IMG/VR virus record: IMGVR_UViG_3300047564_002353
Location: 38,000-101,999 of that record
Direction: 5' to 3' (one strand)
DNA from: a virus
Length of the DNA: 64,000 nucleotides
In this document: piece by piece, positions 36,230-49,829 of the stretch
How positions within the stretch are numbered: position 1 is the first letter of the stretch
Layout: every line of letters starts with the position of its first letter
Program-made: the position numbers and the translations under genes
Notes under the pieces: generated by a model
The model's input: the letters and a program-made list of their open reading frames with translations, nothing else
The model's database searches: none
Told to the model about the DNA's origin: nothing

Positions 36230-36253
36230 ATACGGCGTAGCCGCCGCGGTACT

Positions 36254-36261: not shown

Positions 36262-36265
36262 CTGT

Positions 36266-36612: not shown

Positions 36613-36613
36613 T

Positions 36614-36998: not shown

Positions 36999-37052
36999 AC
37001 CAAATCATAGCTTAGGCCCCGCTGCGCACTTTAACGATATTGAGAACGAATT

Positions 37053-37358: not shown

Positions 37359-37441
37359 AAACTATTATAGCTTGGATCACTATTGCAGCACAGACTATCG
37401 TGCAAGTATTGGCGGCTATTGGTTCTGCACATATTTGGTAG
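37355..37441 (+). CDS. Membrane peptide (28 aa)
   Basis: GTG start overlapping the previous TGA; MKTIIAWITIAAQTIVQVLA AIGSAHIW, ends at TAG. Last gene before the control region. Confidence 0.4.
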   Translation: MKTIIAWITIAAQTIVQVLAAIGSAHIW

Positions 37442-37713
37442 AAAGTATTTTAGCATAGCCTCTCGTGACCCCGACCATAGAAATTCTTCCTAACCATTCC
37501 TCACCATAGGGGCCTCTAGTCCGAACCATTCGGCCAAGGTCCGTCACACAATTCAACACTTTTCTACACAATGTCACACAATTCTGACACAATTAGACAC
37601 TTAGATGTCAATTTTCCCTGACAATCCGTATCTAGAATAGAGAATTTTAGCAAAATCGTACTAAAAAAGACACTGTGTTGCTCTTTTATTAAACTAGATT
37701 ATTAATATACTAA

Positions 37714-37729
37714 GTTAGTGTTCACTAAC
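37714..37729. promoter_or_regulatory. Palindrome GTTAGTG-TT-CACTAAC
   Basis: Perfect 7-bp arms. Shares GTTAGT with the sites at 37771, 37821 and 44084. Confidence 0.55.
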
Positions 37730-37770
37730 TGTTAACCAAACCAAAAGATTGCTGGTTGTACAATTTCTAG

Positions 37771-37790
37771 GTTAGTAAGCGCTTACTGAT
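37771..37790. promoter_or_regulatory. Palindrome AGTAAGC/GCTTACT
   Basis: 14-bp perfect palindrome in the context GTTAGTAAGCGCTTACTGAT; candidate operator. Confidence 0.55.
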
Positions 37791-37820
37791 ACAGTTGCTA
37801 TAGTATTAACACAGATATAT

Positions 37821-37840
37821 GTTAGTAAGTACTTACTGTA
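37821..37840. promoter_or_regulatory. Palindrome AGTAAGT/ACTTACT
   Basis: 14-bp perfect palindrome in GTTAGTAAGTACTTACTGTA, 50 bp centre-to-centre from the previous one. Confidence 0.55.
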
Positions 37841-37939
37841 TCTAGAAACGGCAGGCACCCTCCACGTCCATCCCCAGACACGCTGTTCGAACCGTTGGAC
37901 CTAGGAGTTGTTGTTTTTGTTCGCTCTCTTAGTGTGTAT

Positions 37940-37967
37940 ATTATAGCATCACTGCTCAAAAAGTCAA
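37940..37967 (-). promoter_or_regulatory. Sigma70 promoter, minus, without an evident gene
   Basis: Minus strand TTGACT, 16-bp spacer, TATAAT, followed by the usual leader ACACACTAAGAGAGCGAAC but no ATG. May drive a regulatory RNA through the palindromes, or be a relic. Confidence 0.55.
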
Positions 37968-38012
37968 CCAAAATATCCCTGATTCGCAAAAATACAACAC
38001 TATCTTTTTTGG

Positions 38013-38040
38013 TTGACAATTACTCTAGTTCGTGTATAAT
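38013..38040 (+). promoter_or_regulatory. Sigma70 promoter
   Basis: TTTTTTGG-TTGACA, 16-bp spacer, TATAAT; divergent from the minus promoter. Confidence 0.75.
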
Positions 38041-38071
38041 CATGACTTAGTTAGACAATTAAGGAGCTGAT

Positions 38072-38230
38072 ATGTATTCACTAGCATTCAATGAACTACG
38101 TGTAAAGCGTCTGTTTCGTTTTAACGGCAATGACTATATTAAAAACAGTTCGCGCACGGCACGTATGCTATCTAATGGGCGTATCTTTTACATTGGGCAA
38201 GCGGACATTGTACACCCTATTGCCTGGTAA
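38072..38230 (+). CDS. Small unknown protein (52 aa)
   Basis: MYSLAFNELRVKRLFRFNGN... 'ARMLSNGRIFYIGQADIVHPIAW'. Compact beta-rich, basic; AAGGAG site and strong promoter. Function unknown. Confidence 0.65.
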   Translation: MYSLAFNELRVKRLFRFNGNDYIKNSSRTARMLSNGRIFYIGQADIVHPIAW

Positions 38231-38237
38231 TTAGTGG

Positions 38238-38266
38238 TTGACATTTTGGAACTTTGGCTGTATACT
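38238..38266 (+). promoter_or_regulatory. Sigma70 promoter
   Basis: TTGACA, 17-bp spacer, TATACT upstream of 38297. Confidence 0.75.
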
Positions 38267-38296
38267 ACACGGACACTAACAAATTAGGAGCTGAAC

Positions 38297-38653
38297 ATGG
38301 AACTTACTCAATCGTTGGTCAATCACATGGTACTTGAAGCTAAAGAGGCTGCATACGAGGCAGCTGACAATTACTTTAGACAGCGTCTGAATGGTGTGGA
38401 TCAGTATGCCTGTGGCTTTGCTTGGGTTAACCTTTGGGAACACAATGGCGTCAAGCTCAAGGGTAACACTAAACTGGGCAAGATGCTTAAGGCAGCTGGT
38501 GTGCGTCAGGACTATACTAAGGCCTTTCAGATCTGGAATCCAAGTGGTTTGAGTGTACAGAACGTGGACTGTAAAGAAGTAGGTGCACAGGCTGCGGCTG
38601 ACGTGTTCAAGAAGTATGGATTCACTGCCTACGCTGGTTCACGTTTGGATTGA
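38297..38653 (+). CDS. Conserved phage protein (118 aa)
   Basis: MELTQSLVNHMVLEAKEAAYEAADNYF; 'YACGFAWVNLWEHNGVKLKGNTKLGKMLKAAGVRQDYTKAFQIWNPSG' is a block I recall from other phages and plasmid-like elements. Function unknown. Own promoter. Confidence 0.7.
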   Translation: MELTQSLVNHMVLEAKEAAYEAADNYFRQRLNGVDQYACGFAWVNLWEHNGVKLKGNTKLGKMLKAAGVRQDYTKAFQIWNPSGLSVQNVDCKEVGAQAAADVFKKYGFTAYAGSRLD

Positions 38654-38654
38654 T

Positions 38655-38701
38655 GTTGTAAGAATACAACGGTAGGATTTTGGTTGACAAAGCCTACCGT
38701 T
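38655..38701 (+). terminator. Nested hairpins fused to a promoter
   Basis: GTTGTA-AGAA-TACAAC hairpin, then the 9-bp inverted repeat AACGGTAGG / CCTACCGTT (38668-38676, 38693-38701), which encloses the -35 box of the next promoter. May end the upstream transcript and control the next. Confidence 0.5.
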
Positions 38702-38712
38702 GGTGCTATACT
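38684..38712 (+). promoter_or_regulatory. Sigma70 promoter inside an inverted repeat
   Basis: TTGACA, 17-bp spacer, TATACT; the -35 box lies in the loop of the 9-bp inverted repeat. Confidence 0.75.
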
Positions 38713-38744
38713 GTTGAAACTGTGTAAATGATAAGGAGCTGACA

Positions 38745-39005
38745 ATGCGTGAAGCAACCAATCGTATTTTGGAGCTGGTCGAAGAGGGCTTGCTGGACCG
38801 TGATACTGTGATCATGGCCTGCTTGAAGTATATGAGCGAGGACGATGTAGCCGATATGGCTCACGCCAACGAGTTCTTCCTGGACGAAGATGAAGACGAA
38901 GAAGACGAGGAGTGGGACTGCGATGACAGCGATGATGGTTATGCGCTGGCCTCAGCGGGTTTTGGCACTGACGAAGACTACGGTTACGCAGGAGACGAAT
39001 ACTAA
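38745..39005 (+). CDS. Acidic conserved phage protein
   Basis: 86 aa. Helical N-terminus (MREATNRILELVEEGLLDRD, 'YMSEDDVADMAHANEFF'), then a very acidic tail (DEDEDEEDEEWDCDDSDDG). Such tails can mimic DNA; an anti-host role is speculative. Confidence 0.7.
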   Translation: MREATNRILELVEEGLLDRDTVIMACLKYMSEDDVADMAHANEFFLDEDEDEEDEEWDCDDSDDGYALASAGFGTDEDYGYAGDEY

Positions 39006-39376
39006 TGCGACACTATACTGAGTTGGCTCGTTACGAGCGTGAGGGTTTTGACATCATTGTGGACAAGACCTGGGAAGATATCTACGTAGGCGATTGCTTT
39101 GACGATACTTGCTGGGACATCAAGGACATCTGTAACAAGATTGACTCTGGTTGCTTGGATTGGTTTATGCTTCGTGTACGTGTACTGGTAGACGGCTTGG
39201 AGCTGGGTTCGTCTTACTTGGGTGGTATGCTCTACGAAGATGCCAGTGAGTGCTTGATGGATGGTACTGCCGAGGATCAAATCTACTTGGCCATACAAGA
39301 AGCCAAAGCCCAGGTATGGCCCTTGATGCGTCGTTTACAAAGTATTAACGCTGATATGGAGGCCGCCTGTGGATAA
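39005..39376 (+). CDS. Conserved small phage protein (123 aa)
   Basis: MRHYTELARYEREGFDIIVD; 'WEDIYVGDCFDDTCWDIKDICNKIDSGCLDWFMLRVRVLVDGLELGSSYLGGMLYED'. Several cysteines. The TAATG overlap couples it to the acidic protein. Function unknown. Confidence 0.7.
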   Translation: MRHYTELARYEREGFDIIVDKTWEDIYVGDCFDDTCWDIKDICNKIDSGCLDWFMLRVRVLVDGLELGSSYLGGMLYEDASECLMDGTAEDQIYLAIQEAKAQVWPLMRRLQSINADMEAACG

Positions 39377-39527
39377 CTTTTTGGTTGACATTGAGTACGA
39401 TCCAGTATATAATAGTTTCATGGCTTGCTACTCCAATGGCGTAGTGATCCAGCTAGGAGCCACTAACTATCACGATGCGGTGTTAGAGGCAGATGGTATC
39501 GAACCTTATGAATACGAAGGAGCCTAA
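39369..39527 (+). CDS. Small conserved protein (52 aa), start ambiguous
   Basis: GTG start gives MDNFLVDIEYDPVYNSFMACYSNGVVIQLGATNYHDAVLEADGIEPYEYEGA. A consensus promoter lies inside the first codons, and its +1 falls on the internal ATG at 39420, which would yield a leaderless 35-aa form. The 'QLGA.NYHDAVLEAD' block is the conserved core, as I recall from related phages. Confidence 0.6.
   Translation: MDNFLVDIEYDPVYNSFMACYSNGVVIQLGATNYHDAVLEADGIEPYEYEGA
39385..39413 (+). promoter_or_regulatory. Sigma70 promoter within a short gene
   Basis: TTTTTGG-TTGACA, 17-bp spacer, TATAAT. Confidence 0.65.
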
Positions 39528-39812
39528 ATGAACATTCAGACTATTAATACTGCCATCATCAACGGCACTTGGGCTAACGAGGATTTGATGAGCATGATGG
39601 ATGCTATCAAGTTCAAACGTAAATTGCTCACTGAGCGTACTAAGGCTCAGTTGCGTGTAGGTGACAATGTGAACTTCACTAGTACTAGGACAGGACAGAA
39701 TGTCACTGGTGTAGTCATCAAGATTGCTATCAAATATGTCACTGTGCGTACTGTACAGGGCCTGTGGAAGGTGCCTGCTAACATGTTAAACAAGGTAGAA
39801 GATTTTGCTTAA
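39528..39812 (+). CDS. Conserved phage protein with KOW/SH3-like core
   Basis: 94 aa. Helical start MNIQTINTAIINGTWANEDL, then 'LRVGDNVNFTSTRTGQNVTGVVIKIAIKYVTVRTVQGLWKVPANML', an SH3-like barrel pattern typical of nucleic-acid-binding or small adaptor domains. Function unknown. Confidence 0.7.
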   Translation: MNIQTINTAIINGTWANEDLMSMMDAIKFKRKLLTERTKAQLRVGDNVNFTSTRTGQNVTGVVIKIAIKYVTVRTVQGLWKVPANMLNKVEDFA

Positions 39813-40023
39813 TCGAATATTAGAATGGGTGGCCTGTGGGGTCACCCTAGTTGGAGCTGCACTAACAGCTCAAAATATCTATCCTTTGAACACTTTGTTC
39901 TTAGAGTTAGGTGCATTGATCTATATCATCTGGTGTATACGTATTCGTAGAATCAGTTTAATTCTGGTCAATGTGACTTTGTTTTTAATTTATTTGCCAC
40001 CCTTAATAAGGAACTTTACATAA
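39805..40023 (+). CDS. Small polytopic membrane protein
   Basis: 72 aa, TTG start; two to three hydrophobic segments (WVACGVTLVGAALTAQNIYP; LFLELGALIYIIWCI; LILVNVTLFLIYLPP). Resembles short half-transporter-like phage membrane proteins. Role unknown. Confidence 0.6.
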   Translation: MLNRILEWVACGVTLVGAALTAQNIYPLNTLFLELGALIYIIWCIRIRRISLILVNVTLFLIYLPPLIRNFT

Positions 40024-40214
40024 TGGAACGCCATCGATTTAATGTTTGTATTGAACGCCGTGATGCTAATGGTATGTGGAGCATCAACAGCAATGATAAC
40101 TTTGATACTATTGTAGAAGCTCGTACTGTTAACGACGCTGAACGTATGCTGATGTCGCAGTATGGACATGGTGGAAACACTGTGGTCCGTGCTAACTATC
40201 GCGGACAGGCCTAA
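40023..40214 (+). CDS. Small unknown protein (63 aa)
   Basis: MERHRFNVCIERRDANGMWSI; 'EARTVNDAERMLMSQYG'. Alpha/beta pattern. Overlap with neighbours at both ends. Confidence 0.65.
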   Translation: MERHRFNVCIERRDANGMWSINSNDNFDTIVEARTVNDAERMLMSQYGHGGNTVVRANYRGQA

Positions 40215-40282
40215 TGACGCCTAATGTACCTAGGTGGCCCGAAGATCCCATGGACTACGAGCTGCCTCCACATACTGATTAG
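40214..40282 (+). CDS. Tiny Pro/Asp-rich ORF (22 aa)
   Basis: MTPNVPRWPEDPMDYELPPH...; TAATG overlap with the previous stop, ends at TAG just before a terminator. Confidence 0.45.
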   Translation: MTPNVPRWPEDPMDYELPPHTD

Positions 40283-40290
40283 CAAGTTTG

Positions 40291-40325
40291 CAACGGTGTT
40301 GTTTTTATGCAACACCGTTTTTTTT
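40291..40325 (+). terminator. Rho-independent terminator abutting a promoter
   Basis: AACGGTGTTG - TTTTTATG - CAACACCGTT hairpin followed by eight T residues. The T tract runs directly into the GG-TTGACT -35 of the next promoter. Confidence 0.85.
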
Positions 40326-40327
40326 GG

Positions 40328-40356
40328 TTGACTTTTCGAGTTCGTGGTGCTATACT
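40328..40356 (+). promoter_or_regulatory. Sigma70 promoter
   Basis: TTGACT, 17-bp spacer, TATACT, immediately after the terminator. Confidence 0.75.
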
Positions 40357-40389
40357 ATTGAAACTGTGTAAAACAACAAGGAGAGCGAG

Positions 40390-40635
40390 ATGTCAAACTA
40401 TCCAAATATGTCGTACTGTATGTTCGAAAACACTCAACTGGCCATGGATCAGCTGGCTACCTTTCTGCAAGAAGCAGATCAGGATGACATGCTGGACATG
40501 AGTAAGAGCGAGCTTCGTGCAATGCGTGAGCTGGTGGGCTACTGCGAACAGTACCTGCGCTTGGTTGAGGACTTTGACGACCAGCGTCAGCAGATCCTGG
40601 ATGCTTGTGAAGATGACGAAATGGAGGAGTTCTAA
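40390..40635 (+). CDS. Acidic helical phage protein (81 aa)
   Basis: MSNYPNMSYCMFENTQLAMDQLATFLQEA; highly acidic, helical, C-terminal CEDDEMEEF. I recall the N-terminal block from many phages; function unknown. Confidence 0.7.
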   Translation: MSNYPNMSYCMFENTQLAMDQLATFLQEADQDDMLDMSKSELRAMRELVGYCEQYLRLVEDFDDQRQQILDACEDDEMEEF

Positions 40636-40892
40636 TGTATACCGTTGAAGTTTACAAACAGGATCGCCGTACCAAGTCGGGTGAGCGGCTGGTACACAAA
40701 GCAGACTATGACACTGACAACATCAGTCAGCTGGAGCATAGTGTAAAGCATACGTGGCGCAAGGGCTATCGTTATGAGATTCACCAAACCTATGTGACCC
40801 GCAAGAACATGATGAATGGGCAGGAGTTCCAAGAGCGTTATGATACGCCCTACTACTGCTCGCCTAGATCTGAAACTTATTGGAGTTCATAA
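40635..40892 (+). CDS. Small unknown protein (85 aa)
   Basis: MYTVEVYKQDRRTKSGERLV; beta-rich, basic. TAATG coupled to both neighbours. Confidence 0.65.
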   Translation: MYTVEVYKQDRRTKSGERLVHKADYDTDNISQLEHSVKHTWRKGYRYEIHQTYVTRKNMMNGQEFQERYDTPYYCSPRSETYWSS

Positions 40893-41092
40893 TGTTAACA
40901 CCTAAACAACTATGGTTATTCAATCAGCTGGGCGAGGACCCTGCACAAGAGAAAGATGTACGCCTAAATCATCGTTTGTGTGTAGAGCAGTTTGGAGCTG
41001 TTAAGAATTTTACAACATGGCTGACCAAGCGTCTGTACCGCAAGTGGGAGTCGGATCGTCGCAGAAATACAACACCTTATCTAGGAGACTAG
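40892..41092 (+). CDS. Small unknown protein (66 aa)
   Basis: MLTPKQLWLFNQLGEDPAQE; basic helical 'TTWLTKRLYRKWESDRRRN'. Ends at TAG, which here appears to act as an ordinary stop. Confidence 0.65.
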   Translation: MLTPKQLWLFNQLGEDPAQEKDVRLNHRLCVEQFGAVKNFTTWLTKRLYRKWESDRRRNTTPYLGD

Positions 41093-41093
41093 T

Positions 41094-41210
41094 ATGTTAA
41101 AAATAGCAATAGGTATGGGCAGCATTGTTATGATGATTGCAACACTGATTACTGCTTTAGTAATAACTAGAATGTGTCTCAGTGCTGCACATCATTTTCT
41201 GCTGAAATAG
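41094..41210 (+). CDS. Small membrane protein (38 aa)
   Basis: MLKIAIGMGSIVMMIATLIT ALVITRMCLSAAHHFLLK; ends at TAG 1 nt before the next -35 box. Confidence 0.5.
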   Translation: MLKIAIGMGSIVMMIATLITALVITRMCLSAAHHFLLK

Positions 41211-41211
41211 G

Positions 41212-41240
41212 TTGACATTTGGGCACAGAGGTGCTATTAT
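41212..41240 (+). promoter_or_regulatory. Sigma70 promoter
   Basis: TTGACA, 17-bp spacer, TATTAT. Confidence 0.75.
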
Positions 41241-41273
41241 ATACACACTTAGACAACAACGAAGGAGAGCGAA

Positions 41274-41702
41274 ATGGGTACAAGAGCATTGACGTTTGTT
41301 TATGATGGCGACAAGCCAATCCTCAATCTTTACCGCCAGTATGATGGCTACCCAACTGGGCACGGTGCTGAACTAGCACAATTCCTAGAGGGCTTTACCA
41401 TTGTCAACGGTATTGGTCGCGAGACTACCCGTGTGGCTAATGGCATGGGCTGCTTGGCTGCACAGGTTGTAGCACACTTCAAAGACAGCGTGGGCGGATT
41501 TTATATCCACAGCGTTGACAGTAAGGAGTGCGGTCAGGACTACGAGTACCATGTGTACCAAAAGGACAAGGAGCTGCGTGTTCGCATTACGGATCGTGGC
41601 TGCAATATGTTTGGGCTTACAATCAGTGACACTAACGCCAGCATCTTTGACGGCTCTGTTGCAGAGTTTGTAATGTTCTGCTCTGAGCCACAAGCGGCAT
41701 AA
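41274..41702 (+). CDS. Conserved phage protein (MGTRALTFVYDG family)
   Basis: 142 aa. 'MGTRALTFVYDGDKPILNLYRQYDGYPTGHGAELAQFL' and 'QDYEYHVYQKDKELRVRI'. A recurrent small domain in phage genomes with no assigned role. Own promoter and GGAG site. Confidence 0.75.
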   Translation: MGTRALTFVYDGDKPILNLYRQYDGYPTGHGAELAQFLEGFTIVNGIGRETTRVANGMGCLAAQVVAHFKDSVGGFYIHSVDSKECGQDYEYHVYQKDKELRVRITDRGCNMFGLTISDTNASIFDGSVAEFVMFCSEPQAA

Positions 41703-41708
41703 ATTGGT

Positions 41709-41737
41709 TGACAAAGTGTAGGGCTGGTGTTATACTA
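41709..41737 (+). promoter_or_regulatory. Sigma70 promoter
   Basis: TTGG-TTGACA, 17-bp spacer, TATACT. Confidence 0.75.
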
Positions 41738-41766
41738 GCTCTACACTAACAAAACAGGAGCACAAA

Positions 41767-42027
41767 ATGGCTAGATTTGCAATTGAGCAGTATGTGGATC
41801 AAAAGAATCAGTGGGCAGGCTTGTTTGGTGGTCGGAAGCTGAGCTTGCTGAACAAGGCGGACAGGCAGCGGATTGCTGACAGTTTGGATGCAGACCTCAG
41901 CCCAGAGAATTTGAGCTGTGATGGCGAACTGCCTCGTGCGGAGGTGCAGAAGCGTTATAACTTCCTCACCCGTGCTGCCAAAGAGTTGAAGAGCATTGAC
42001 CCTGCTGTTGAAATGTACGGATTCTAA
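41767..42027 (+). CDS. Small unknown protein (86 aa)
   Basis: MARFAIEQYVDQKNQWAGLF; helical, charged. No family recognised. Shares a promoter with the next two genes. Confidence 0.65.
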   Translation: MARFAIEQYVDQKNQWAGLFGGRKLSLLNKADRQRIADSLDADLSPENLSCDGELPRAEVQKRYNFLTRAAKELKSIDPAVEMYGF

Positions 42028-42036
42028 GGAGCTAGA

Positions 42037-42186
42037 ATGAACAGAGAAGGATTGAACAGAATCGATCTTACTATTAGTATTTGGGTCGATACGGATGAGT
42101 ATCAAGACATAATTGAAAACTTGGATTACGATATCCAGCATCCTGCGGTCAAGGATATGGAACTCGTTGACGTAAACTACGAATAA
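42037..42186 (+). CDS. Small unknown protein (49 aa)
   Basis: MNREGLNRIDLTISIWVDTD; 'ENLDYDIQHPAVKDMELVDV'. Has the beta-alpha-beta feel of the 47-aa protein at 30112. GGAG site upstream. Confidence 0.6.
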   Translation: MNREGLNRIDLTISIWVDTDEYQDIIENLDYDIQHPAVKDMELVDVNYE

Positions 42187-42196
42187 GGAGACTGAT

Positions 42197-42763
42197 ATGC
42201 CTAACTGGTGCGAAAACAGTGTTGTACTCAAGCACGAAGACCCTACATTCGTTGCTCGTGCTCGTGAATCATTTAATCGCGGCGAGCTGTTGAATGAATT
42301 CGTTCCTGTACCTAAGGACTTGCTTGAGGCTATGGCAGGCAGTTTTGGTGATGCGGATAAGCAGAAGGACTTGGAGATTCAAACTGCATACAATATCAAG
42401 AACTATGGTTACAGCAACTGGTATGACTTCTGTATTGCAGAGTGGGGGACCAAGTGGGATATAGGTGCTAATGGTCAGCCTGCACAGGATATCGAAGGTG
42501 GGCTGATGTTAAACTTTGAATCAGCATGGGCTCCTCCGATTGAAGCATATAGCAAGCTGAAGAGTATGGGTTTCTATATTGAGGCTTTTTACTATGAAGG
42601 TGGCATGGGATTCTGCGGTGCTTGGATGGATGGTGAGGATGAATACTATCAGATCGAAGGCAACAGCGAATGGGTAGAAGCCAACATACCCGAGTATATC
42701 GACGAGGCGTTTGGTATCTCTCAAAATATGGCAGAATGGGAAGAAGAAAATGCAGAAGAATAA
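42197..42763 (+). CDS. Api92/YubB-like protein
   Basis: 188 aa. 'MPNWCENSVVLKHEDP' start, 'EFVPVPKDL', 'WYDFCIAEWGTKWDIG', 'LMLNFESAWAPPIEAY' are the hallmarks of the ferredoxin-like Api92/YubB (DUF1281-type) family on phages and plasmids. Function unknown. Acidic C-terminus. Confidence 0.8.
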   Translation: MPNWCENSVVLKHEDPTFVARARESFNRGELLNEFVPVPKDLLEAMAGSFGDADKQKDLEIQTAYNIKNYGYSNWYDFCIAEWGTKWDIGANGQPAQDIEGGLMLNFESAWAPPIEAYSKLKSMGFYIEAFYYEGGMGFCGAWMDGEDEYYQIEGNSEWVEANIPEYIDEAFGISQNMAEWEEENAEE

Positions 42764-42854
42764 ACCTGAGCAACAACGAGTACGTCCCAAGGAACCCAAT
42801 TGGGACTTCTCTGGGCTGGAAGCAGTAATTAGACTGTGGGCTAAATCAAAATGA
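42750..42854 (+). CDS. Tiny basic ORF (34 aa)
   Basis: MQKNKPEQQRVRPKEPNWDF...; overlaps the end of the Api92-like gene and the ATGA of the next gene, filling the gap exactly. Confidence 0.5.
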   Translation: MQKNKPEQQRVRPKEPNWDFSGLEAVIRLWAKSK

Positions 42855-43084
42855 GTAAACTACAACTACTTCACCGTCCATGGGTAGTATTTGATCCTCA
42901 TAATACTAACCATAGAAAGTATTACTCGGACTTTACCAAATATTCAACGTGGGGTCGTTGCCCTGTTAGGTTCATTATGGATGACGACAGTAACGATTTA
43001 GTAACAATGATTCAGCGTAAATTGGTAGAGTATTATGTAGTCAAAGAGTTTAATTTGGACGAATATAATGCAAAAAAGGCTTGA
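42851..43084 (+). CDS. Conserved small phage protein (77 aa)
   Basis: MSKLQLLHRPWVVFDPHNTN; 'YYSDFTKYSTWGRCPVRFIMDDDSNDLVTMIQRKLVEYYV'. A well-defined block known from other phages as I recall. Function unknown. Confidence 0.7.
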   Translation: MSKLQLLHRPWVVFDPHNTNHRKYYSDFTKYSTWGRCPVRFIMDDDSNDLVTMIQRKLVEYYVVKEFNLDEYNAKKA

Positions 43085-43109
43085 CACCAAACCAAAAGCA
43101 TAGTATAAT
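43081..43109 (+). promoter_or_regulatory. Sigma70 promoter
   Basis: TTGACA, 17-bp spacer, TATAAT, beginning in the stop codon of the previous gene. Confidence 0.75.
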
Positions 43110-43168
43110 TTGAACTGTAGTAGCAATATTACTTGTTTTTCTTTTAACACACACATGGAGATGTAACA

Positions 43169-43522
43169 ATGGCAACTGATAAAACTTATACCGTAGCTGG
43201 TACTTCTAAACACAATGGTGGCTTCAAAGTTCGTTTCGCTAACGATTTGATGCGTACCAAGAACCTGACCAAGTCTGGTCACACTGATATTGTTTTGGTT
43301 GAGCTGCCCAAGGCCATGCTCAAGATTGATGCTGTGAACTATATTGCAACTCTTGATGAGTTCAGCAATGTTGGTTCTAAGTCAGCTATCATGGACTATC
43401 TGGATCGCAATGATGCAGAGCCTAAAGCTAAGGCAGGCCCCGCTGCTAAGGCCCCTACTAAGGCCAAGGCACCAGCTAAGGCCAAGGCTGCTGAGACTGT
43501 AGACGAAGACGCACCCTTTTAA
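43169..43522 (+). CDS. Basic-linker protein with SSB-like acidic tip
   Basis: 117 aa. N-terminal 75 residues form an alpha/beta domain ('GFKVRFANDLMRTKNLTKSGHTDIVLVELPKAML'). Then a Lys/Ala/Pro linker (KAKAGPAAKAPTKAKAPAK) and the tip ETVDEDAPF, which copies the acidic ...PF end that SSB uses to recruit repair and replication proteins. Inferred: DNA-associated recruiter or competitor of SSB. Confidence 0.7.
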   Translation: MATDKTYTVAGTSKHNGGFKVRFANDLMRTKNLTKSGHTDIVLVELPKAMLKIDAVNYIATLDEFSNVGSKSAIMDYLDRNDAEPKAKAGPAAKAPTKAKAPAKAKAAETVDEDAPF

Positions 43523-43535
43523 TCGCGTGTGAGGC

Positions 43536-43574
43536 CTCCGTATCGTATAAATAATTTCACTATGCGATACGGAG
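43536..43574 (+). promoter_or_regulatory. 10-bp hairpin enclosing a late promoter and start codon
   Basis: CTCCGTATCG / CGATACGGAG with a 19-nt loop, followed by a T-rich stretch. The loop carries TATAAATA and the ATG of the next gene. May terminate the upstream transcript. Confidence 0.55.
43546..43553 (+). promoter_or_regulatory. T4-type late promoter TATAAATA
   Basis: Exact T4 late consensus; predicted +1 about 3 nt before the ATG at 43562. Confidence 0.6.
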
Positions 43575-43735
43575 TTTCTTTTTCAAACGATTATTTTGAA
43601 GGTGTGGTAGTAATACGTGACTTTCAAAGCGAACCCAAAGGCCGTGTATTGGCCATAATACCTAGAGAATCAAGACACGAGGCAGAACAGGAAGCACAAC
43701 GAATCTGCGACTTATTAAATAAATCCTTGCAATGA
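43562..43735 (+). CDS. Small unknown protein (57 aa)
   Basis: MRYGVSFSNDYFEGVVVIRD; 'PRESRHEAEQEAQRICDLLNK'. The ATG at 43562 is preferred over a GTG at 43529 because the late promoter lies between them. Confidence 0.6.
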   Translation: MRYGVSFSNDYFEGVVVIRDFQSEPKGRVLAIIPRESRHEAEQEAQRICDLLNKSLQ

Positions 43736-43905
43736 AATTTGAATTATACGAAGTTTGGAGTGAGGACTCTGACTTAGTAGATACTACAAGCAGTCTAGTC
43801 GAAGCTAGAATACTTGCTCAACAAGCACTTGACGAAGGTGCAGAGTTTGTTGTAATATATAGAGAAACAGACGAAGGCGATCTTGAAGTAGTTGAAGAAA
43901 TGTAA
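43732..43905 (+). CDS. Small acidic protein (57 aa)
   Basis: MKFELYEVWSEDSDLVDTTS; 'LVEARILAQQALDEGAEFVVIYRETDEG'. Typical small alpha/beta phage ORF, ATGA coupled to the previous gene, ending just before tRNA-Leu. Confidence 0.65.
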   Translation: MKFELYEVWSEDSDLVDTTSSLVEARILAQQALDEGAEFVVIYRETDEGDLEVVEEM

Positions 43906-43906
43906 T

Positions 43907-43993
43907 GCCCGGGTGGTGAAATAGGTAGACACAAGAGACTTAAAATCTCTCGCTCGAAAGGGCGTGCCGGTTCGATTCCGGCCTCGGGCACCA
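43907..43993 (+). tRNA. tRNA-Leu(TAA)
   Basis: 87 nt with a long variable arm, encoded CCA, anticodon stem AGAGA/TCTCT and loop CTTAAAA. Reads UUA/UUG, useful for an AT-rich phage. Confidence 0.93.
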
Positions 43994-44000
43994 CTAACAT

Positions 44001-44075
44001 CTGGCCGTAGGTAAATGGATATACCAGTAGCCTTCTAAGCTTCTATTCCAGGTTCGATTCCTGGCGGCCGGACCA
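44001..44075 (+). tRNA. tRNA-Arg(TCT)
   Basis: 75 nt, acceptor CTGGCCG/CGGCCGG, D stem GGTA/TACC, loop CTTCTAA with anticodon TCT, T stem CCAGG/CCTGG, encoded CCA. Reads AGA. Confidence 0.9.
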
Positions 44076-44083
44076 CTCCCTAG

Positions 44084-44099
44084 GTTAGTAAGCACTAAC
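44084..44099. promoter_or_regulatory. Palindrome GTTAGT-AAGC-ACTAAC
   Basis: Fourth copy of the GTTAGT palindrome, 42-57 bp upstream of the 44141 promoter. Confidence 0.5.
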
Positions 44100-44140
44100 T
44101 TACAAATCCCTCCAAAACAGTTAACTATTAAAATTTTTGG

Positions 44141-44168
44141 TTGACTTTTTTACGCAAAGCTGTATAAT
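44141..44168 (+). promoter_or_regulatory. Sigma70 promoter
   Basis: TTTTTGG-TTGACT, 16-bp spacer, TATAAT. Confidence 0.75.
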
Positions 44169-44201
44169 ACAAACACTTAAACAAAACAGCAGGAGCGTAA
44201 A

Positions 44202-44495
44202 ATGCGTGTAAAAAAAGCAACTAAAGCAGACGTAGCAACTATTGTAGCAATTATGCAAGCTGACTTAGCACGTTATGTGCAACTAACAAAAACAGTAGAC
44301 GCTGACGCAGACGACATTTACATAACAGAATTGCACTACGACGACATTGTGTACAATTACAATGCACTGTTGCAGTTTACGCAAGACAAAGACACAGTAA
44401 AATTGTGCGACGCACTAATTAAACAAGACACAATTGTGCGCGAGTTTTTTTATAAAACTGTACACTACGCAACAGACAATTATTTGTACTATTAA
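44202..44495 (+). CDS. Unknown 97-aa protein lacking Gly, Pro, Ser and Trp
   Basis: MRVKKATKADVATIVAIMQA...; predicted helical. The gene contains no GG, CC or TC dinucleotide, and the protein has no Gly, Pro, Ser or Trp. Strong promoter and AGGAGCG site argue it is expressed. Function unknown. Confidence 0.7.
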   Translation: MRVKKATKADVATIVAIMQADLARYVQLTKTVDADADDIYITELHYDDIVYNYNALLQFTQDKDTVKLCDALIKQDTIVREFFYKTVHYATDNYLYY

Positions 44496-44501
44496 TTTTG
44501 G

Positions 44502-44530
44502 TTGACAAAGTGTGTATAGTGTGCTACTAT
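44502..44530 (+). promoter_or_regulatory. Sigma70 promoter
   Basis: TTTTGG-TTGACA, 17-bp spacer, TACTAT. Confidence 0.7.
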
Positions 44531-44565
44531 ACACACACTTAAACAAAACACATAGGAGCGAAACT

Positions 44566-44745
44566 ATGCAAACAACTAAACAACAACTATTTGCTAAATT
44601 AGCAGAAGTGCAAGACCTGCTACATAACAGCACTTGCGACAGCGAAACTTTTGCACAAAGCTTGCAAGCTGACATAGGCTGGGCTGCGGAGCTGGACATT
44701 GCACTGCGTACACTTACAGACAATATAGATTATTACGTGGACTAA
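44566..44745 (+). CDS. Small helical protein (59 aa)
   Basis: MQTTKQQLFAKLAEVQDLLH; 'ADIGWAAELDIALRTLTDNI'. No family recognised. Free of TC on the coding strand. Confidence 0.65.
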   Translation: MQTTKQQLFAKLAEVQDLLHNSTCDSETFAQSLQADIGWAAELDIALRTLTDNIDYYVD

Positions 44746-44751
44746 AAACGG

Positions 44752-44780
44752 TTGACAAAGTGTGTGTACTGTGCTATTAT
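44752..44780 (+). promoter_or_regulatory. Sigma70 promoter
   Basis: TTGACA, 17-bp spacer, TATTAT; nearly identical to the 44502 promoter and leader. Confidence 0.75.
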
Positions 44781-44807
44781 ACACACACTAACACATAGGA
44801 GCGAGAA

Positions 44808-44972
44808 ATGGACGAAGCTAAAATTGAGCGGCTGGAACGTACACTGTGGGAGCTAGAGCAGCTGGCTAGTGAGCTGTTTGACATGGGCTACATTACACAG
44901 GGCAACATGATTTATGATGCTGTAGAAGCAATGGACATGGAATTGCAAGACGTAGTAGAGGGGAGAGCATAA
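44808..44972 (+). CDS. Small helical acidic protein (54 aa)
   Basis: MDEAKIERLERTLWELEQLA...; predicted two-helix hairpin. TAATG coupled to the next gene. No TC on the coding strand. Confidence 0.6.
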   Translation: MDEAKIERLERTLWELEQLASELFDMGYITQGNMIYDAVEAMDMELQDVVEGRA

Positions 44973-45205
44973 TGTTGCTTAAATACCAAATTGAAGAACT
45001 GCTGGCCCTGGATGCTGACGGCCTTGCTAGAATTGCAAGAGCCAGTGGTTACAAAGATGCTAAGTTCACTGACTGCGAGTTTGTGGGCATTACTAACGGC
45101 GGCGAGTTTGCATATAAAGCAACATATTTTGAGGACGGTGCGTACGACTTTACAAAATTGTATGTTCGCCGTGACCCTGCTGGGAACTATGTAGCAGACT
45201 ACTAA
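44972..45205 (+). CDS. Small unknown protein (77 aa)
   Basis: MLLKYQIEELLALDADGLAR; 'DCEFVGITNGGEFAYKATYFEDGAYDFTKLYVRRDPAGNYVADY' beta meander. Unknown. Confidence 0.65.
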   Translation: MLLKYQIEELLALDADGLARIARASGYKDAKFTDCEFVGITNGGEFAYKATYFEDGAYDFTKLYVRRDPAGNYVADY

Positions 45206-45217
45206 CACAAAAAACGG

Positions 45218-45245
45218 TTGACATTTTGGACAGTTAGTGTATAAT
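45218..45245 (+). promoter_or_regulatory. Sigma70 promoter
   Basis: TTGACA, 16-bp spacer, TATAAT. Confidence 0.75.
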
Positions 45246-45275
45246 AGCTGCATACGTTAACAAAAAGGAGCCAAA

Positions 45276-45518
45276 ATGTTTGCTACTGCTAAAAACAACA
45301 CTGCTTACGCTAAACTGTCCTTTTGCAAAAAACTGCAATTGTTTAAAATGATCGTTGCTTTTAATGTAACGCAGCGTAATGCTAAGGGCAAACTGTTGTT
45401 TCCTGTGCAACAAAAGTGCAACTATGTTAGTGGTCACTTTGCGCTAGAGGACCTTGCTAAACAGTTAACTGTTGCGGAGCAGCATCTGCGTACAAATAAA
45501 ATACAAATTGTAGAATAA
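45276..45518 (+). CDS. Small unknown protein (80 aa)
   Basis: MFATAKNNTAYAKLSFCKKL; basic, 'HFALEDLAKQLTVAEQHLRT'. No family recognised. Confidence 0.65.
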   Translation: MFATAKNNTAYAKLSFCKKLQLFKMIVAFNVTQRNAKGKLLFPVQQKCNYVSGHFALEDLAKQLTVAEQHLRTNKIQIVE

Positions 45519-45524
45519 TTTTGG

Positions 45525-45553
45525 TTGACAGTATAGCACCTTTGTGCTATACT
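45525..45553 (+). promoter_or_regulatory. Sigma70 promoter with palindrome in the spacer
   Basis: TTGACA, 17-bp spacer, TATACT; overlaps the 12-bp inverted repeat at 45528-45555. Confidence 0.75.
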
Positions 45554-45555
45554 GT
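45528..45555. promoter_or_regulatory. Operator-like palindrome over a promoter
   Basis: ACAGTATAGCAC-CTTT-GTGCTATACTGT, perfect 12-bp arms, covering the end of the -35 through the -10. Ideal position for a repressor. Confidence 0.6.
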
Positions 45556-45575
45556 GTTTTTAGTTAGGAGCGTTT

Positions 45576-45722
45576 ATGTACACATTATATTTTTATAACA
45601 GTGGCGGGGAACGTGAGACGCATGGCTCGCACCCTACACTGGAAGCAGCTCAAGCAGTTCAAGCTCAAATGCAGGAAGAATTTGGCGACGATGATTCGCG
45701 TTTTGAGATTGTAGTTACCTAG
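45576..45722 (+). CDS. Small acidic protein (48 aa) ending in TAG
   Basis: MYTLYFYNSGGERETHGSHP; 'ALEAAQAVQ'-type helix and acidic end. The TAG is followed in frame by three sense codons and the ATG of the next gene, so amber readthrough would fuse the two proteins. Confidence 0.65.
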   Translation: MYTLYFYNSGGERETHGSHPTLEAAQAVQAQMQEEFGDDDSRFEIVVT

Positions 45723-45731
45723 GAGCGTCTA

Positions 45732-45947
45732 ATGACAGAACTAAAAGATATGCAGGGCCGTGTAATCTCAGTAGGTGATCAGGTGGCCTTTGTGGGCTAT
45801 CACAATTCCAACACATTGACAATTGGTGTTGTAAAAAAGCTACATCGCGTTCGTGCAGAAGTAGAGTACAAGAGTTTGTGGTCAAATAAGTCTAAAGAGA
45901 TCCTTAACACACGGGGATTGGTCAAGATTGAAAAGGAGTTTGCATAA
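45732..45947 (+). CDS. Small SH3/KOW-like protein (71 aa)
   Basis: MTELKDMQGRVISVGDQVAFVGYHNSNTLTIGVVKKL: beta-barrel pattern resembling KOW/SH3 domains. AGGAGCG upstream overlaps the TAG of the previous gene. Confidence 0.65.
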   Translation: MTELKDMQGRVISVGDQVAFVGYHNSNTLTIGVVKKLHRVRAEVEYKSLWSNKSKEILNTRGLVKIEKEFA

Positions 45948-46153
45948 TGAATATTCTAGAACAGTTTGAAGAGTTGGGCAACAGAGCCAGCTTCCACTTT
46001 GCAGATGACAGTGGTAGAGAGTTTGACTCAGGTTTTGCTCGCCAGCGTGAAGCAGAAGCCTTGTTCGTTCAGCATCCCGAGCTGCGTGAGGAAATGACAG
46101 CAATCTCTAAGAGATTTTTGTGGACATTAAAGATTGACAAATTGGTTAGTTGA
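45947..46153 (+). CDS. Small unknown protein (68 aa)
   Basis: MNILEQFEELGNRASFHFAD; helical. Its last codons (KIDKLVS) double as the -35 region of the next promoter. Confidence 0.65.
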   Translation: MNILEQFEELGNRASFHFADDSGREFDSGFARQREAEALFVQHPELREEMTAISKRFLWTLKIDKLVS

Positions 46154-46162
46154 CTGTATAAT
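46134..46162 (+). promoter_or_regulatory. Sigma70 promoter
   Basis: TTGACA, 17-bp spacer, TATAAT, inside the end of a gene. Confidence 0.75.
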
Positions 46163-46194
46163 ATACACATACACTAACAAAACAGGAGCGAACT

Positions 46195-46446
46195 ATGTTT
46201 AAATTAGATGAGCCGCGTGAAGTACATTTCCAAGGCAAAACGTACACTACATGGCACGGTAGCCCATTTGACCGTGGCAGTGCAGACAGCTGGTACAGCC
46301 GCAGTGCTAAACCACACTGGTACCCCGAAGGCACTGGGCGTGGTGAGATTGTAACAGAAGAGCGCATGAGCTTGGCGGAAATTGAAGCATACTTCGCTGG
46401 CTATGACCACAATGAGCGGTTTGGTGGTAAGAAGAGCTGGGACTGA
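46195..46446 (+). CDS. Conserved small phage/bacterial protein (83 aa)
   Basis: MFKLDEPREVHFQGKTYTTWHGSPFDRGSADSWYSRSAKPHWYPEGTG...: a Trp/Tyr/Gly-rich block I recall as a recurrent small domain in phages. Function unknown. Confidence 0.7.
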   Translation: MFKLDEPREVHFQGKTYTTWHGSPFDRGSADSWYSRSAKPHWYPEGTGRGEIVTEERMSLAEIEAYFAGYDHNERFGGKKSWD

Positions 46447-46650
46447 ATTCCGGTTAGCACTTTCCTGAAAGTGCCGGGTGGGACACGTTAGTTATCCCGG
46501 TTGGCTAGGCTACCGTTAGCGCAATGCAGAGCAGAGCACCTAGATATCCGGACACAACCGGTAGCACGATACGCTGAAACAAATGTGGACAGGGAAACAA
46601 CTCCAGCATAGGGGCGATGATTGGAACCACGTGGCCTAAGCAACTAACAT
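46447..46650 (+). ncRNA. Candidate structured RNA or long 5' UTR
   Basis: About 205 nt, GC-richer than its surroundings, without an ORF. Shows CACTTTC-CT-GAAAGTG, CCGGG...CCCGG and a longer GCTACCG...CGGTAGC pairing encl. CCGGTT/AACCGG. Lies between two genes, the second lacking its own obvious promoter. No known class recognised. Confidence 0.45.
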
Positions 46651-46663
46651 TAAGGAGCTAATT

Positions 46664-47053
46664 ATGCCTAAAGCACAACCAGTAGAAGTTATTGACCTGC
46701 CCGAACTACGTAGCCTGGATATCAACGAAATGTTTGATGCTATGGACGAACTTGATTGCCCTATTGATATGATTAACGAGCGATTGATCCTAGACGGTGC
46801 ATATGGCTATCAATCAGCCACAGAAGGCATCCTCAATCACGAGAAATTCTACGACATCACCGACGACGAATACCAAGCCTGTGATGCGGGTATTCAGGCT
46901 GCAATGAAAGCCGTGAATGCTACACTGCGTCGCATGAATGTAGACTACGAGATTGTAGAAGTAGATCTCGCAGAAAGTATGGGCTTCATGTTGGTTGCTA
47001 AAGATGCAACAGCCAAGCAGGTTGCTAAAAATATAAAGAAAGGTCGGATCTAA
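46664..47053 (+). CDS. Unknown protein (129 aa)
   Basis: MPKAQPVEVIDLPELRSLDI; 'DELDCPIDMINERLILDGAYGYQSATEGI', 'EIVEVDLAESMGFMLVAKDATAKQVAKNIKKG'. Acidic with a basic tail. AAGGAG site. No family recognised. Confidence 0.7.
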   Translation: MPKAQPVEVIDLPELRSLDINEMFDAMDELDCPIDMINERLILDGAYGYQSATEGILNHEKFYDITDDEYQACDAGIQAAMKAVNATLRRMNVDYEIVEVDLAESMGFMLVAKDATAKQVAKNIKKGRI

Positions 47054-47058
47054 ATCGG

Positions 47059-47087
47059 TTGACAACCCAGCACCTTGATGCTATAAT
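47059..47087 (+). promoter_or_regulatory. Sigma70 promoter
   Basis: TTGACA, 17-bp spacer, TATAAT. Confidence 0.75.
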
Positions 47088-47117
47088 TACTACATACTGA
47101 AACAACAGGAGCAGACG

Positions 47118-47312
47118 ATGGGCTACAAGGTACTGGGCAACTACGAAGACGTCATGCAAGGATATGGTCCCCGCAAAGGACTGGAAGGCCCAATGAACTT
47201 TAACGGTCGTGTGGTCTACTACGATGTCCGAGAAGGCAAATACTGGGACCCACGCACCGACTTCTATCTCAGCCACTCAGAAGCATTGGAGATGTATGAA
47301 CTACGCACCTAA
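47118..47312 (+). CDS. Small unknown protein (64 aa)
   Basis: MGYKVLGNYEDVMQGYGPRK; 'GRVVYYDVREGKYWDPRTDFYLSHSEALEMYEL'. Beta-rich. Unknown. Confidence 0.65.
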   Translation: MGYKVLGNYEDVMQGYGPRKGLEGPMNFNGRVVYYDVREGKYWDPRTDFYLSHSEALEMYELRT

Positions 47313-47469
47313 ACCCTACTATCGTGTATCAATGAACCGCAAACGTCAGATCATTGATGCCACCCTAGACGAGTTGCATACCTTGCAACTGGATATGATT
47401 GACCAAGCAGTAGAGTATTCTGATCTACAAGAAGCCAAGGAATTGATCGACTGGATCCGTAAGCTATGA
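47296..47469 (+). CDS. Small helical protein (57 aa)
   Basis: MNYAPKPYYRVSMNRKRQII; 'LHTLQLDMIDQAVEYSDLQEAKELIDWIRKL' long helix. Starts in another frame inside the previous gene. Confidence 0.6.
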   Translation: MNYAPKPYYRVSMNRKRQIIDATLDELHTLQLDMIDQAVEYSDLQEAKELIDWIRKL

Positions 47470-47573
47470 CAGTATCAACAGTTGACTGTGTTGCTATTAT
47501 TGCAATACTGCTGGTTCTGGCAGTGGGCTTGATCCTTGCTGGTTACGAATTAGCACATCTACTCATAGGCTGA
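47466..47573 (+). CDS. Membrane peptide (35 aa)
   Basis: MTVSTVDCVAIIAILLVLAV GLILAGYELAHLL; one membrane helix, ATGA overlap start. Confidence 0.5.
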   Translation: MTVSTVDCVAIIAILLVLAVGLILAGYELAHLLIG

Positions 47574-47574
47574 T

Positions 47575-47730
47575 ATGTGGCTGCTTCTAACTATAGTATT
47601 AATCAATGGCGTACCAGACTTCATGGTCCTTGCAAAAACTACAACAATGACTGAATGCTTGAACTTGCTGAAAAAACAACCCAAGGATCCTAGTATGCAT
47701 TGTATCTACGCGAATTCGGTTGACAAATAG
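47575..47730 (+). CDS. Family C secreted two-cysteine peptide (51 aa)
   Basis: Hydrophobic start MWLLLTIVLINGVPDFMVLA, then 'TMTECLNLLKKQPKDPSMHCIYA'. The C-terminal NSVDK-stop overlaps the -35 of the next promoter; ends at TAG. Confidence 0.55.
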   Translation: MWLLLTIVLINGVPDFMVLAKTTTMTECLNLLKKQPKDPSMHCIYANSVDK

Positions 47731-47748
47731 CCCTAGTTTTGCTATACT
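47720..47748 (+). promoter_or_regulatory. Sigma70 promoter
   Basis: TTGACA, 17-bp spacer, TATACT. Confidence 0.75.
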
Positions 47749-47775
47749 GTTGAAACTGTAAACAAGGAGCGAACT

Positions 47776-48114
47776 ATGTTGCTAGTCATTCAAACCCAAA
47801 ACCAAGAAAACTACGGCGCACACGACTGGGACGGCCGTGGCGAGTGCCCACAGTACTGGAAGTTCAAGGGCGGTAACGAAATCAAGGTCCAGGGCGTAGA
47901 AGTGGGCATGGACTACCAGCAGATCGTAGAAAGCCTGCGTGGCCAAATCGAAGAAAACACCAACTTCTACCGCGTGTCAATCATAGGCTACAGTGTAGAA
48001 GCTGACAGCTACCTCAGCTGGTTCGAGCAGAGCCAACTGGACTACGATGGCGAGATTCTGTTCAAAGAACCTGTGATTGAATATCAAAAAACGGTTGACA
48101 AACTGGCTGTTTGA
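47776..48114 (+). CDS. Conserved phage protein (112 aa)
   Basis: 'MLLVIQTQNQENYGAHDWDGRGECPQYWKFKGG' is a recurrent phage motif; then a helical middle and 'EADSYLSWFEQSQLDYDGEILFKEPVI'. Unknown function. Confidence 0.7.
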   Translation: MLLVIQTQNQENYGAHDWDGRGECPQYWKFKGGNEIKVQGVEVGMDYQQIVESLRGQIEENTNFYRVSIIGYSVEADSYLSWFEQSQLDYDGEILFKEPVIEYQKTVDKLAV

Positions 48115-48123
48115 TAGTATTAT
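48095..48123 (+). promoter_or_regulatory. Sigma70 promoter
   Basis: TTGACA, 17-bp spacer, TATTAT, overlapping the end of the previous gene. Confidence 0.7.
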
Positions 48124-48152
48124 ATAAACACTGTAAACAAGGAGCAAATGAA

Positions 48153-48344
48153 ATGAACGATACTGCAATTTTCCGTGTAATGGGCGTACTGCAACTGCTA
48201 ATCGCCTTTATTAACTTCTACGTGGCCAATCAGGCACTGGCAGCCGGCACAGATGCCCTGAACATTGCTGTGGCTGCTGCACTGACTATGACCGGCGTGT
48301 TCTGCACTGTGGTTGGTGCTAAAATGTTTGGATGGTTGAACTAA
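48153..48344 (+). CDS. Two-pass membrane protein (63 aa)
   Basis: MNDTAIFRVMGVLQLLIAFINFYV... AAALTMTGVFCTVVGAKMF; two membrane helices. GGAGC site 7 nt upstream fixes the start. Confidence 0.6.
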   Translation: MNDTAIFRVMGVLQLLIAFINFYVANQALAAGTDALNIAVAAALTMTGVFCTVVGAKMFGWLN

Positions 48345-48481
48345 TGGGCAAGTTCTTCTTAGGCGTACTGGTCACCCTGGCTATTATGTATCCTGTGGCC
48401 ACTAAGCATTACTTTGGTACAGCAGTGGATACAACCAACGCCGTTGTAAAACATACACTGGAAAAACCCATTGACAAATAA
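48344..48481 (+). CDS. Small membrane protein (45 aa)
   Basis: MGKFFLGVLVTLAIMYPVAT, N-terminal membrane segment, then a short soluble helix; TAATG overlap. Its last codons (IDK) carry the next -35 box. Confidence 0.55.
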   Translation: MGKFFLGVLVTLAIMYPVATKHYFGTAVDTTNAVVKHTLEKPIDK

Positions 48482-48499
48482 ACAAAAAGACTGTATTAT
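48471..48499 (+). promoter_or_regulatory. Sigma70 promoter
   Basis: TTGACA, 17-bp spacer, TATTAT. Confidence 0.7.
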
Positions 48500-48526
48500 A
48501 CACACACTAACTGAACGGAGCGAACT

Positions 48527-48661
48527 ATGTATTCTAAATTTATTATCCGACTGCTGGACGCGATCCCAACGCCTACTCCAGAGCAGGGCGACCGTGCAGT
48601 AAACTTGACCCTGGCTTTTGTAGCAGGATTTATTGTGGCAATGTTGGCTTTTGGAGGTTAA
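48527..48661 (+). CDS. Small membrane protein (44 aa)
   Basis: MYSKFIIRLLDAIPTPTPEQ..., C-terminal membrane helix LTLAFVAGFIVAMLAFGG. CGGAGCG site upstream. Confidence 0.55.
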   Translation: MYSKFIIRLLDAIPTPTPEQGDRAVNLTLAFVAGFIVAMLAFGG

Positions 48662-48662
48662 T

Positions 48663-48881
48663 ATGATGACTTACGAACAAGCAATTCAAACTGTGGCACA
48701 GGCACGTGAAGACTTTATGAATCGCCGCCCTACACTGGCCTACGTTCCAGAAACTAGCATCGCACTGTTCTACGGTAAGGACGTTGAACTGGTGCAGCTG
48801 GACTTGCTCATGGCACAACGAGCAATTGAAGCAGCAGAAAGCGTACCCAATTTCCTGCGTAAGGACTTGACAGCAGCATAA
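48663..48881 (+). CDS. Small helical protein (72 aa)
   Basis: MMTYEQAIQTVAQAREDFMN; 'KDVELVQLDLLMAQRAIEAAESVPNF'. Predicted helical. Unknown. Confidence 0.65.
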   Translation: MMTYEQAIQTVAQAREDFMNRRPTLAYVPETSIALFYGKDVELVQLDLLMAQRAIEAAESVPNFLRKDLTAA

Positions 48882-48895
48882 ACATCAGTTATAAT
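48867..48895 (+). promoter_or_regulatory. Sigma70 promoter of the AAA+ gene
   Basis: TTGACA, 17-bp spacer, TATAAT, starting within the end of the previous gene. Confidence 0.7.
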
Positions 48896-48900
48896 ATCGA

Positions 48901-48924
48901 CTACACACTAGCAATAGTGTGTAG
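48901..48924 (+). promoter_or_regulatory. 5'-terminal mRNA hairpin with GNRA loop
   Basis: CTACACACTA-GCAA-TAGTGTGTAG, perfect 10-bp stem. Sits at the expected +1 of the AAA+ transcript, where it could protect the 5' end from decay. Confidence 0.55.
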
Positions 48925-48960
48925 CAATATTCTAACTAACACAGAGCGAAAGAGCGAACT

Positions 48961-49782
48961 ATGATGAATTTGGAAATCCCCAAGCTGGGCAAAAAGGCAG
49001 CAGAAACTAACGAACAGATCAAACAGCGTCTGCGTGATCGTTTTGAAATACTTAACGATATGACTCGTGCTGTTAAGAAGGGCGATGTACGTGCTATGAT
49101 CGTCACAGGCCCACCAGGCGTAGGCAAAAGCTTTGGCATTGAAGAAGTCTTGGGCAAGCACGACTTGATGGCGAACATTGCTAACAACACCAAGCTCAAG
49201 AAGTACGAAGTGGTCAAAGGTGCTATGAGTGCGTTGGGCTTGTATGCTAAACTCTACGAGTACAAAGACCCTAAGTCAATCCTAGTGTTCGACGACTGTG
49301 ATAGTGTACTGCAAGACGAACTGAGTCTTAACATTCTCAAGGCAGCACTGGATACATCAAAGAAGCGTATGATCCATTGGAACACAGACAGCCGTCTACT
49401 GCGTGATCAGGGCGCACCAAATAGCTTTGAGTTCAAGGGCGGTGCTATCTTTATCACTAACATTAAGTTTGAGAATGTACGTAGCAAGAAGCTGCGTGAT
49501 CACTTGGAAGCCTTGGAGTCACGCTGCCACTACTTGGATCTTACTATTGATACAGAGCGTGAGAAGATGCTGCGTATCGAACAGATCGTAGAAGATGGTA
49601 TGCTCACAGAGTATGAGTTTAGCACAGAAGAGCAAGCAGAGTTGATTCACTTTATTGACTCTAATAAGAAGAACCTACGCGAACTGTCACTGCGTACAGT
49701 ACTAAAGATAGCGGACTTGCGTCGTAGCTTTCCGCATAAGTGGCAGAGCGTAGCAGAGGTTACCTGTATGCGCCGCGGTTGA
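48961..49782 (+). CDS. AAA+ ATPase
   Basis: 273 aa. Walker A GPPGVGKS at 50-57, Walker B ILVFDDCD near 107-114, sensor-type 'GAIFITNIKF' and a C-terminal helical region. Resembles AAA+ proteins found in T4-like marine phages whose role is unassigned. Last gene of the plus-strand run, closed by a terminator. Confidence 0.8.
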   Translation: MMNLEIPKLGKKAAETNEQIKQRLRDRFEILNDMTRAVKKGDVRAMIVTGPPGVGKSFGIEEVLGKHDLMANIANNTKLKKYEVVKGAMSALGLYAKLYEYKDPKSILVFDDCDSVLQDELSLNILKAALDTSKKRMIHWNTDSRLLRDQGAPNSFEFKGGAIFITNIKFENVRSKKLRDHLEALESRCHYLDLTIDTEREKMLRIEQIVEDGMLTEYEFSTEEQAELIHFIDSNKKNLRELSLRTVLKIADLRRSFPHKWQSVAEVTCMRRG

Positions 49783-49829
49783 TTCGCTCCCAACCAGCAT
49801 ACTGAGTAAGGGCCATCGTGGCCCACTTG

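Follow-up and report, generated by a model that had tools for sequence, protein, structure and literature searches.

A block of about 950 nucleotides in the genome of a large freshwater virus of bacteria contains no TC dinucleotide on its plus strand, and the relatives that carry the block have kept it free of TC while diverging in sequence. Our window, a stretch of 64,000 nucleotides, lies at the very end of a virus contig of 102 kb, and the TC-free block (UC-free in mRNA) occupies positions 44112 to 45065 of its + strand. Both the sequence feature and the selection on it are firmly established. The pressure likely acts at the level of RNA, as we infer from the distribution of the avoided dinucleotides described below. 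Our preferred reading, to which we assign a probability of about 45%, is that the block is early mRNA kept free of UC in order to escape an RNA attack specific for UC by a postulated attacker.

An exact recount supported by a table of dinucleotides places the flanking TCs at 44111 and 45066, a gap of 954-955 nt; the runner-up gap in the whole window is 165 nt. This agrees with an earlier note on the DNA, which had reported the absence of TC from 44113 to 45065. The note had also put the expected number of copies at roughly 50. The deficit is real, but that figure is somewhat high: base composition predicts approximately 43 TC and the density in the flanks approximately 36, while for the coding part of the block, with the proteins held fixed, approximately 16 are expected. 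The last value comes from a null model in which codons are sampled from the phage's own usage, and under it the probability of observing zero is about 1e-7, separately for each of three genomes. TC is therefore depleted beyond what composition and protein content explain. In a scan of all 16 dinucleotides across 390 kb of the virus and its relatives, the four copies of this desert were the top TC outliers. The strand specificity that it described also holds, as GA is still present on the + strand (58 observed, 73 expected). Overlooked at that stage was a depletion of CC, which occurs 7 times in the block against 33 expected and is nearly absent before the fourth gene; the two longest CC gaps of the window are both found here. 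AC and GC are enriched approximately 1.6-fold and 1.8-fold, respectively.

Codon use in the block follows the same pattern. We pooled 827 codons from the four related genomes that carry it, so the counts are not independent. Among third bases that are C or T, the fraction of C is 0.65 in NAY and 0.61 in NGY codons, falling to 0.08 (5/63) in NCY and 0.00 (0/74) in NTY. The third base preceding a codon that starts with C is T in 0 and C in 10 of 140 cases, while genome-wide T accounts for 39%. Serine is never encoded by TCN, and AGY is used 21 times. From the third-base and codon-junction counts, the rule is that UC is forbidden, CC is depleted, and AC and GC are free, and it applies within codons, at codon junctions and in leaders. 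Codon usage alone is ruled out by the junction and leader data, bearing out the note's statement that this is not a codon effect.

As the note had described, the block crosses three genes, part of a fourth, and the promoter spacers: g1 to g3, 94 nt at the start of g4, and three promoter/leader spacers, all on the + strand. A pattern scan placed a sigma70-like promoter without TC (P1, TTGACT-N16-TATAAT) at 44141-44168, and the same promoter is present at 9154 in the relative L005. It is followed in the ORF list by g1 (44202-44495; 97 aa), with no TC where the codon null expects 6.2; its protein has no Ser, Pro or Gly and is 76% identical in L005. The sigma70-like promoter P2 (44502-44530), in which an 11-nt inverted repeat spans the spacer and the -10 element, precedes g2 (44566-44745; 59 aa; 0 TC, 5.0 expected). 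P3 (44752-44780), also sigma70-like and with an inverted repeat, precedes g3 (44808-44972; 54 aa; 0 TC, 2.9 expected). The 77-aa g4 (44972-45205) contains two TC beyond its TC-free beginning, at 45066 and 45166. Perfect inverted repeats of 10-12 nt lie over the spacer and -10 element at 44510-44536, 44759-44789 and 45528-45555 (for example, GTGTGTATAGT/ACTATACACAC), and by their sequence these early-promoter repeats look like repressor operator sites. The products of the block genes are small and acidic. Comparison of g1 to g6 with PHROGs and Pfam returned no named family or function, INPHARED held no homologue of g1 or g5, and the AlphaFold models of g2 (pLDDT 65) and g1 (49) were of low confidence and too weak for fold searches.

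The block lies within a larger set of small + strand genes at 36000-49800, which we call early because most of them have their own sigma70-like promoter in the pattern scan. The genes of the block are thus probably expressed early, with both timing and transcription starts predicted from promoter-like sequences. Outside the desert, TC in the early coding sequence of this region is mildly low (observed/expected 0.74). One early gene at 46195-46446 has 2 TC against 9.7 expected from its protein; its counterpart in L005 is not TC-poor, so the avoidance may move between genes. The window also encodes a DnaB-like helicase; among named phages, its closest relatives come from Pseudomonas phage PA5oct and other large phages, with identities of about 50%.

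The block occurs in only four genomes (the window, L005, L026 and L069), which are partly related to one another, so that their counts are not independent. L005, which is approximately 80% identical, has its own TC-free block of 980-981 nt across the same genes, ending at the same codon of g4; its g4 contains a single TC, in the same codon as in the window. Across g1 to g3, 178 of 854 sites differ between the window and L005, with zero TC on either side. For comparison, three control regions with 165-230 differences contain 26-40 TC per side, of which 13-20 are shared, corresponding to 32-37 turnovers. In L026, at least 1083 nt from the contig start are TC-free, covering g2, an extra 80-aa gene, g3 and the whole of g4. 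The extra gene, an insertion that separates g2 from g3 and has no counterpart in L005 or the window contig, is itself TC-free. L069 is a different phage with 47% G+C and a TC-rich genome (observed/expected 1.03), and it carries only a homologue of g2 (69% protein identity). There the promoter and gene are TC-free over 340-341 nt, with CC also absent, and the neighbors of this unit are full of TC. Thus g2 is a portable member of the block, TC-free in L026 and in L069 as well as here, and because in L069 only its promoter-gene unit lacks TC, the property is tied to the transcript and not to the genome position. The depletion has been kept through divergence in all four genomes, and we conclude that early mRNA is under continuing purifying selection. 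A function bound to location, such as an origin or a packaging site, is disfavored, as g2 is TC-free at a different locus too and the inserted gene of L026 shares the property. The right edge of the block is variable, since L029, which begins at the end of g3, has TC in g4. In a distant relative, L060, positions 2478-3251 contain a run of shorter early-region TC gaps (229, 156 and 155 nt), which may be a milder form of this avoidance.

The 5' leaders of early genes give a second view of where the pressure acts. In the early-block leaders of the window (36000-49800), TC occurs once against 12.3 expected and CC once against 12.3; across phages, the observed/expected ratios in early leaders are 0.08-0.32 for TC and 0-0.19 for CC. 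Over the 30 nt that precede the -35 element the TC ratio is 0.69-1.10, and in the 31 nt preceding late genes it is 0.90 and 1.00. In most relatives, then, UC and CC are avoided from the predicted transcription start onward, but not in the DNA upstream of the promoter. The same break appears in L060 (23 leaders) and L061 (13 leaders), two distant relatives whose leader sequences are different; L011 does not show it, and the few leaders of L069 give a mixed picture for TC. Within any one phage, leaders are alike across promoters and so are not independent, and promoter spacers are partly TC-poor (0.32-0.66), which weakens the comparison. Removal of TC from 0.34 kb of the TC-rich L069 could not protect the whole DNA but could protect one message, which again argues for RNA rather than DNA. 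Among the causes suggested by the note, avoidance of UC in mRNA is consequently favored, by the passage of g2 into a TC-rich genome and by leaders that avoid UC and CC from their predicted start, and the same two observations disfavor a primase or single-strand nuclease site.

The avoided step, the strictness at each site and the link to the transcript are consistent with cleavage or modification of mRNA at UC. The pressure would come from an attack on individual pyrimidine-C steps that favors UC and affects CC more weakly. The attacker would be a putative sequence-specific endoribonuclease or RNA-modifying enzyme, either part of a host defence or encoded by the phage, and active at the time when expression of g1 to g4 is needed. 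In ordinary early genes only the ribosome-free leader would be guarded, and in g1 to g4 the whole message. Because UC is fully excluded from coding sequence in the block and not in neighboring early genes, the model must assume a special timing or need for these genes; their small acidic products might be proteins needed under attack, for example counter-defence proteins. A more specific version, which we regard as doubtful, is a natural form of single-protein production, in which UC-free 'stealth' messages (g1 to g4, with g2 as the minimal portable form) are translated through an early UC-specific destruction of mRNA and encode factors that stop the attack or turn it to the phage's advantage. 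The destroying activity might then belong to the host's defences or be a shut-off enzyme of the phage itself.

The best rival to escape from UC-specific attack is evasion of Rho, which polices foreign transcripts in most bacteria; we consider it unlikely. The primary RNA-binding site of Rho contacts 5'-YC dinucleotides (PMC9160355), and early transcripts without YC could not load it. The avoided set, UC and CC but not AC or GC, is the YC step, the same class as in Rho utilization (rut) sites (PMC9160355), and its avoidance on the transcript is strand-specific. However, Rho requires several YC within a long C-rich, G-poor stretch, so that purging every UC exceeds the need; a 30-nt leader is too short for loading, and translated genes are shielded. 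Evasion of Rho should also leave a C-poor transcript in which CC is avoided at least as much as UC, and the block does not have these traits: the ban on UC is much stricter than that on CC, as the T and C counts before C-starting codons show, overall C content is not lowered, and C in AC or GC context is raised (1.6-1.8 times expectation). Tuning for translation or low structure, by which CA-rich leaders and strongly biased codons would exclude YC by accident, seems quite unlikely to us. The leaders are indeed rich in A and C (ACACACTAACAAAACAGGAGC), and the desert genes are richer in C-ending NAY and NGY codons than other early genes. Against this, C-ending codons are favored after A or G and never after T, T never stands before a codon starting with C, and structure prediction does not give the block an unusually weak fold (z -1.9); its RNA structure is unremarkable.

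Avoidance of a target in single-stranded DNA, either a primase site or the site of a TC-specific nuclease acting on the non-template strand, would also be strand-specific. T4 endonuclease IV (DenB) is a dC-specific nuclease of single-stranded DNA with a preference for TC(A), and a search for DenB homologues in the 364-kb, 166-kb, 102-kb and 40-kb records, run without a positive control, returned no match. We judge this explanation improbable, because a TC-free stretch of 0.34 kb in L069 cannot protect DNA elsewhere and because leaders avoid TC while the DNA just upstream of promoters does not. Loss of C in TC context on the non-template strand, through a strand-specific deaminase or UV damage, has a very low probability. 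The order of contexts (TC, then CC, then RC) resembles that of such enzymes. Yet C makes up 18.6% of the block and 18-20% of the flanks, and NTT is not in excess: the third bases T:A:G in NTN codons stand at 74:66:86, in the proportions of other early genes (261:198:344). C-to-T deamination is therefore not the cause, contrary to one suggestion of the note. A search for deaminases returned one PF00383 member of ordinary appearance, in the 364-kb relative. An origin by chance or as a side effect of protein composition can practically be dismissed: the Ser- and Pro-poor proteins do lower the coding expectation to about 16, but the improbable zero recurs in three genomes, is repeated in diverged sequence, and is the top outlier of 390 kb by 16 dinucleotides.

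Several known systems resemble escape from UC-specific attack in part. ACA-less genes are used together with the mRNA interferase MazF for single-protein production, and in the avoidance of restriction sites and toxin motifs by phage genomes, as with MazF, loss of a short target likewise frees molecules from an enzyme. Here the exclusion is natural, concerns a whole dinucleotide on the sense strand only and in a few genes, and the enzyme is postulated. The RNA-targeting antiphage nuclease CcaCas13b has a collateral RNase activity that prefers UC (PMC13299584), the step avoided in this phage. In the CmdTAC defence, CmdT ADP-ribosylates phage mRNA at GA (PMC11618068), and so provides a dinucleotide-specific attack on phage mRNA, but its target differs and the block shows no GA desert. 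When a few genes lack one dinucleotide completely on the sense strand, this is a strong mark of selection. If escape from UC-specific attack is correct, the block points to a new antiphage or host-shut-off enzyme and to genes built to survive it, and UC-free runs could then guide the search for genes of this kind in other phages.

The stretch of L005 is identical in six IMG/VR contigs, one of which is 364,554 bases long. The contig of that length, IMGVR_UViG_3300042350_002797 (L007/L033), ends near the desert and starts near an ATPase gene that in the window lies downstream of the desert, and it may represent a complete circular genome. An ATPase scan across bacterial genomes gave no match. 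Contigs L026, L029 and L036 also break near the desert region. Elsewhere in the window, ARAGORN identified a tRNA with anticodon CTA at 32061-32136 (labelled tRNA-Pyl), a possible amber suppressor, and TAG is a rare stop codon, ending 5 of the 102 genes longer than 100 aa.
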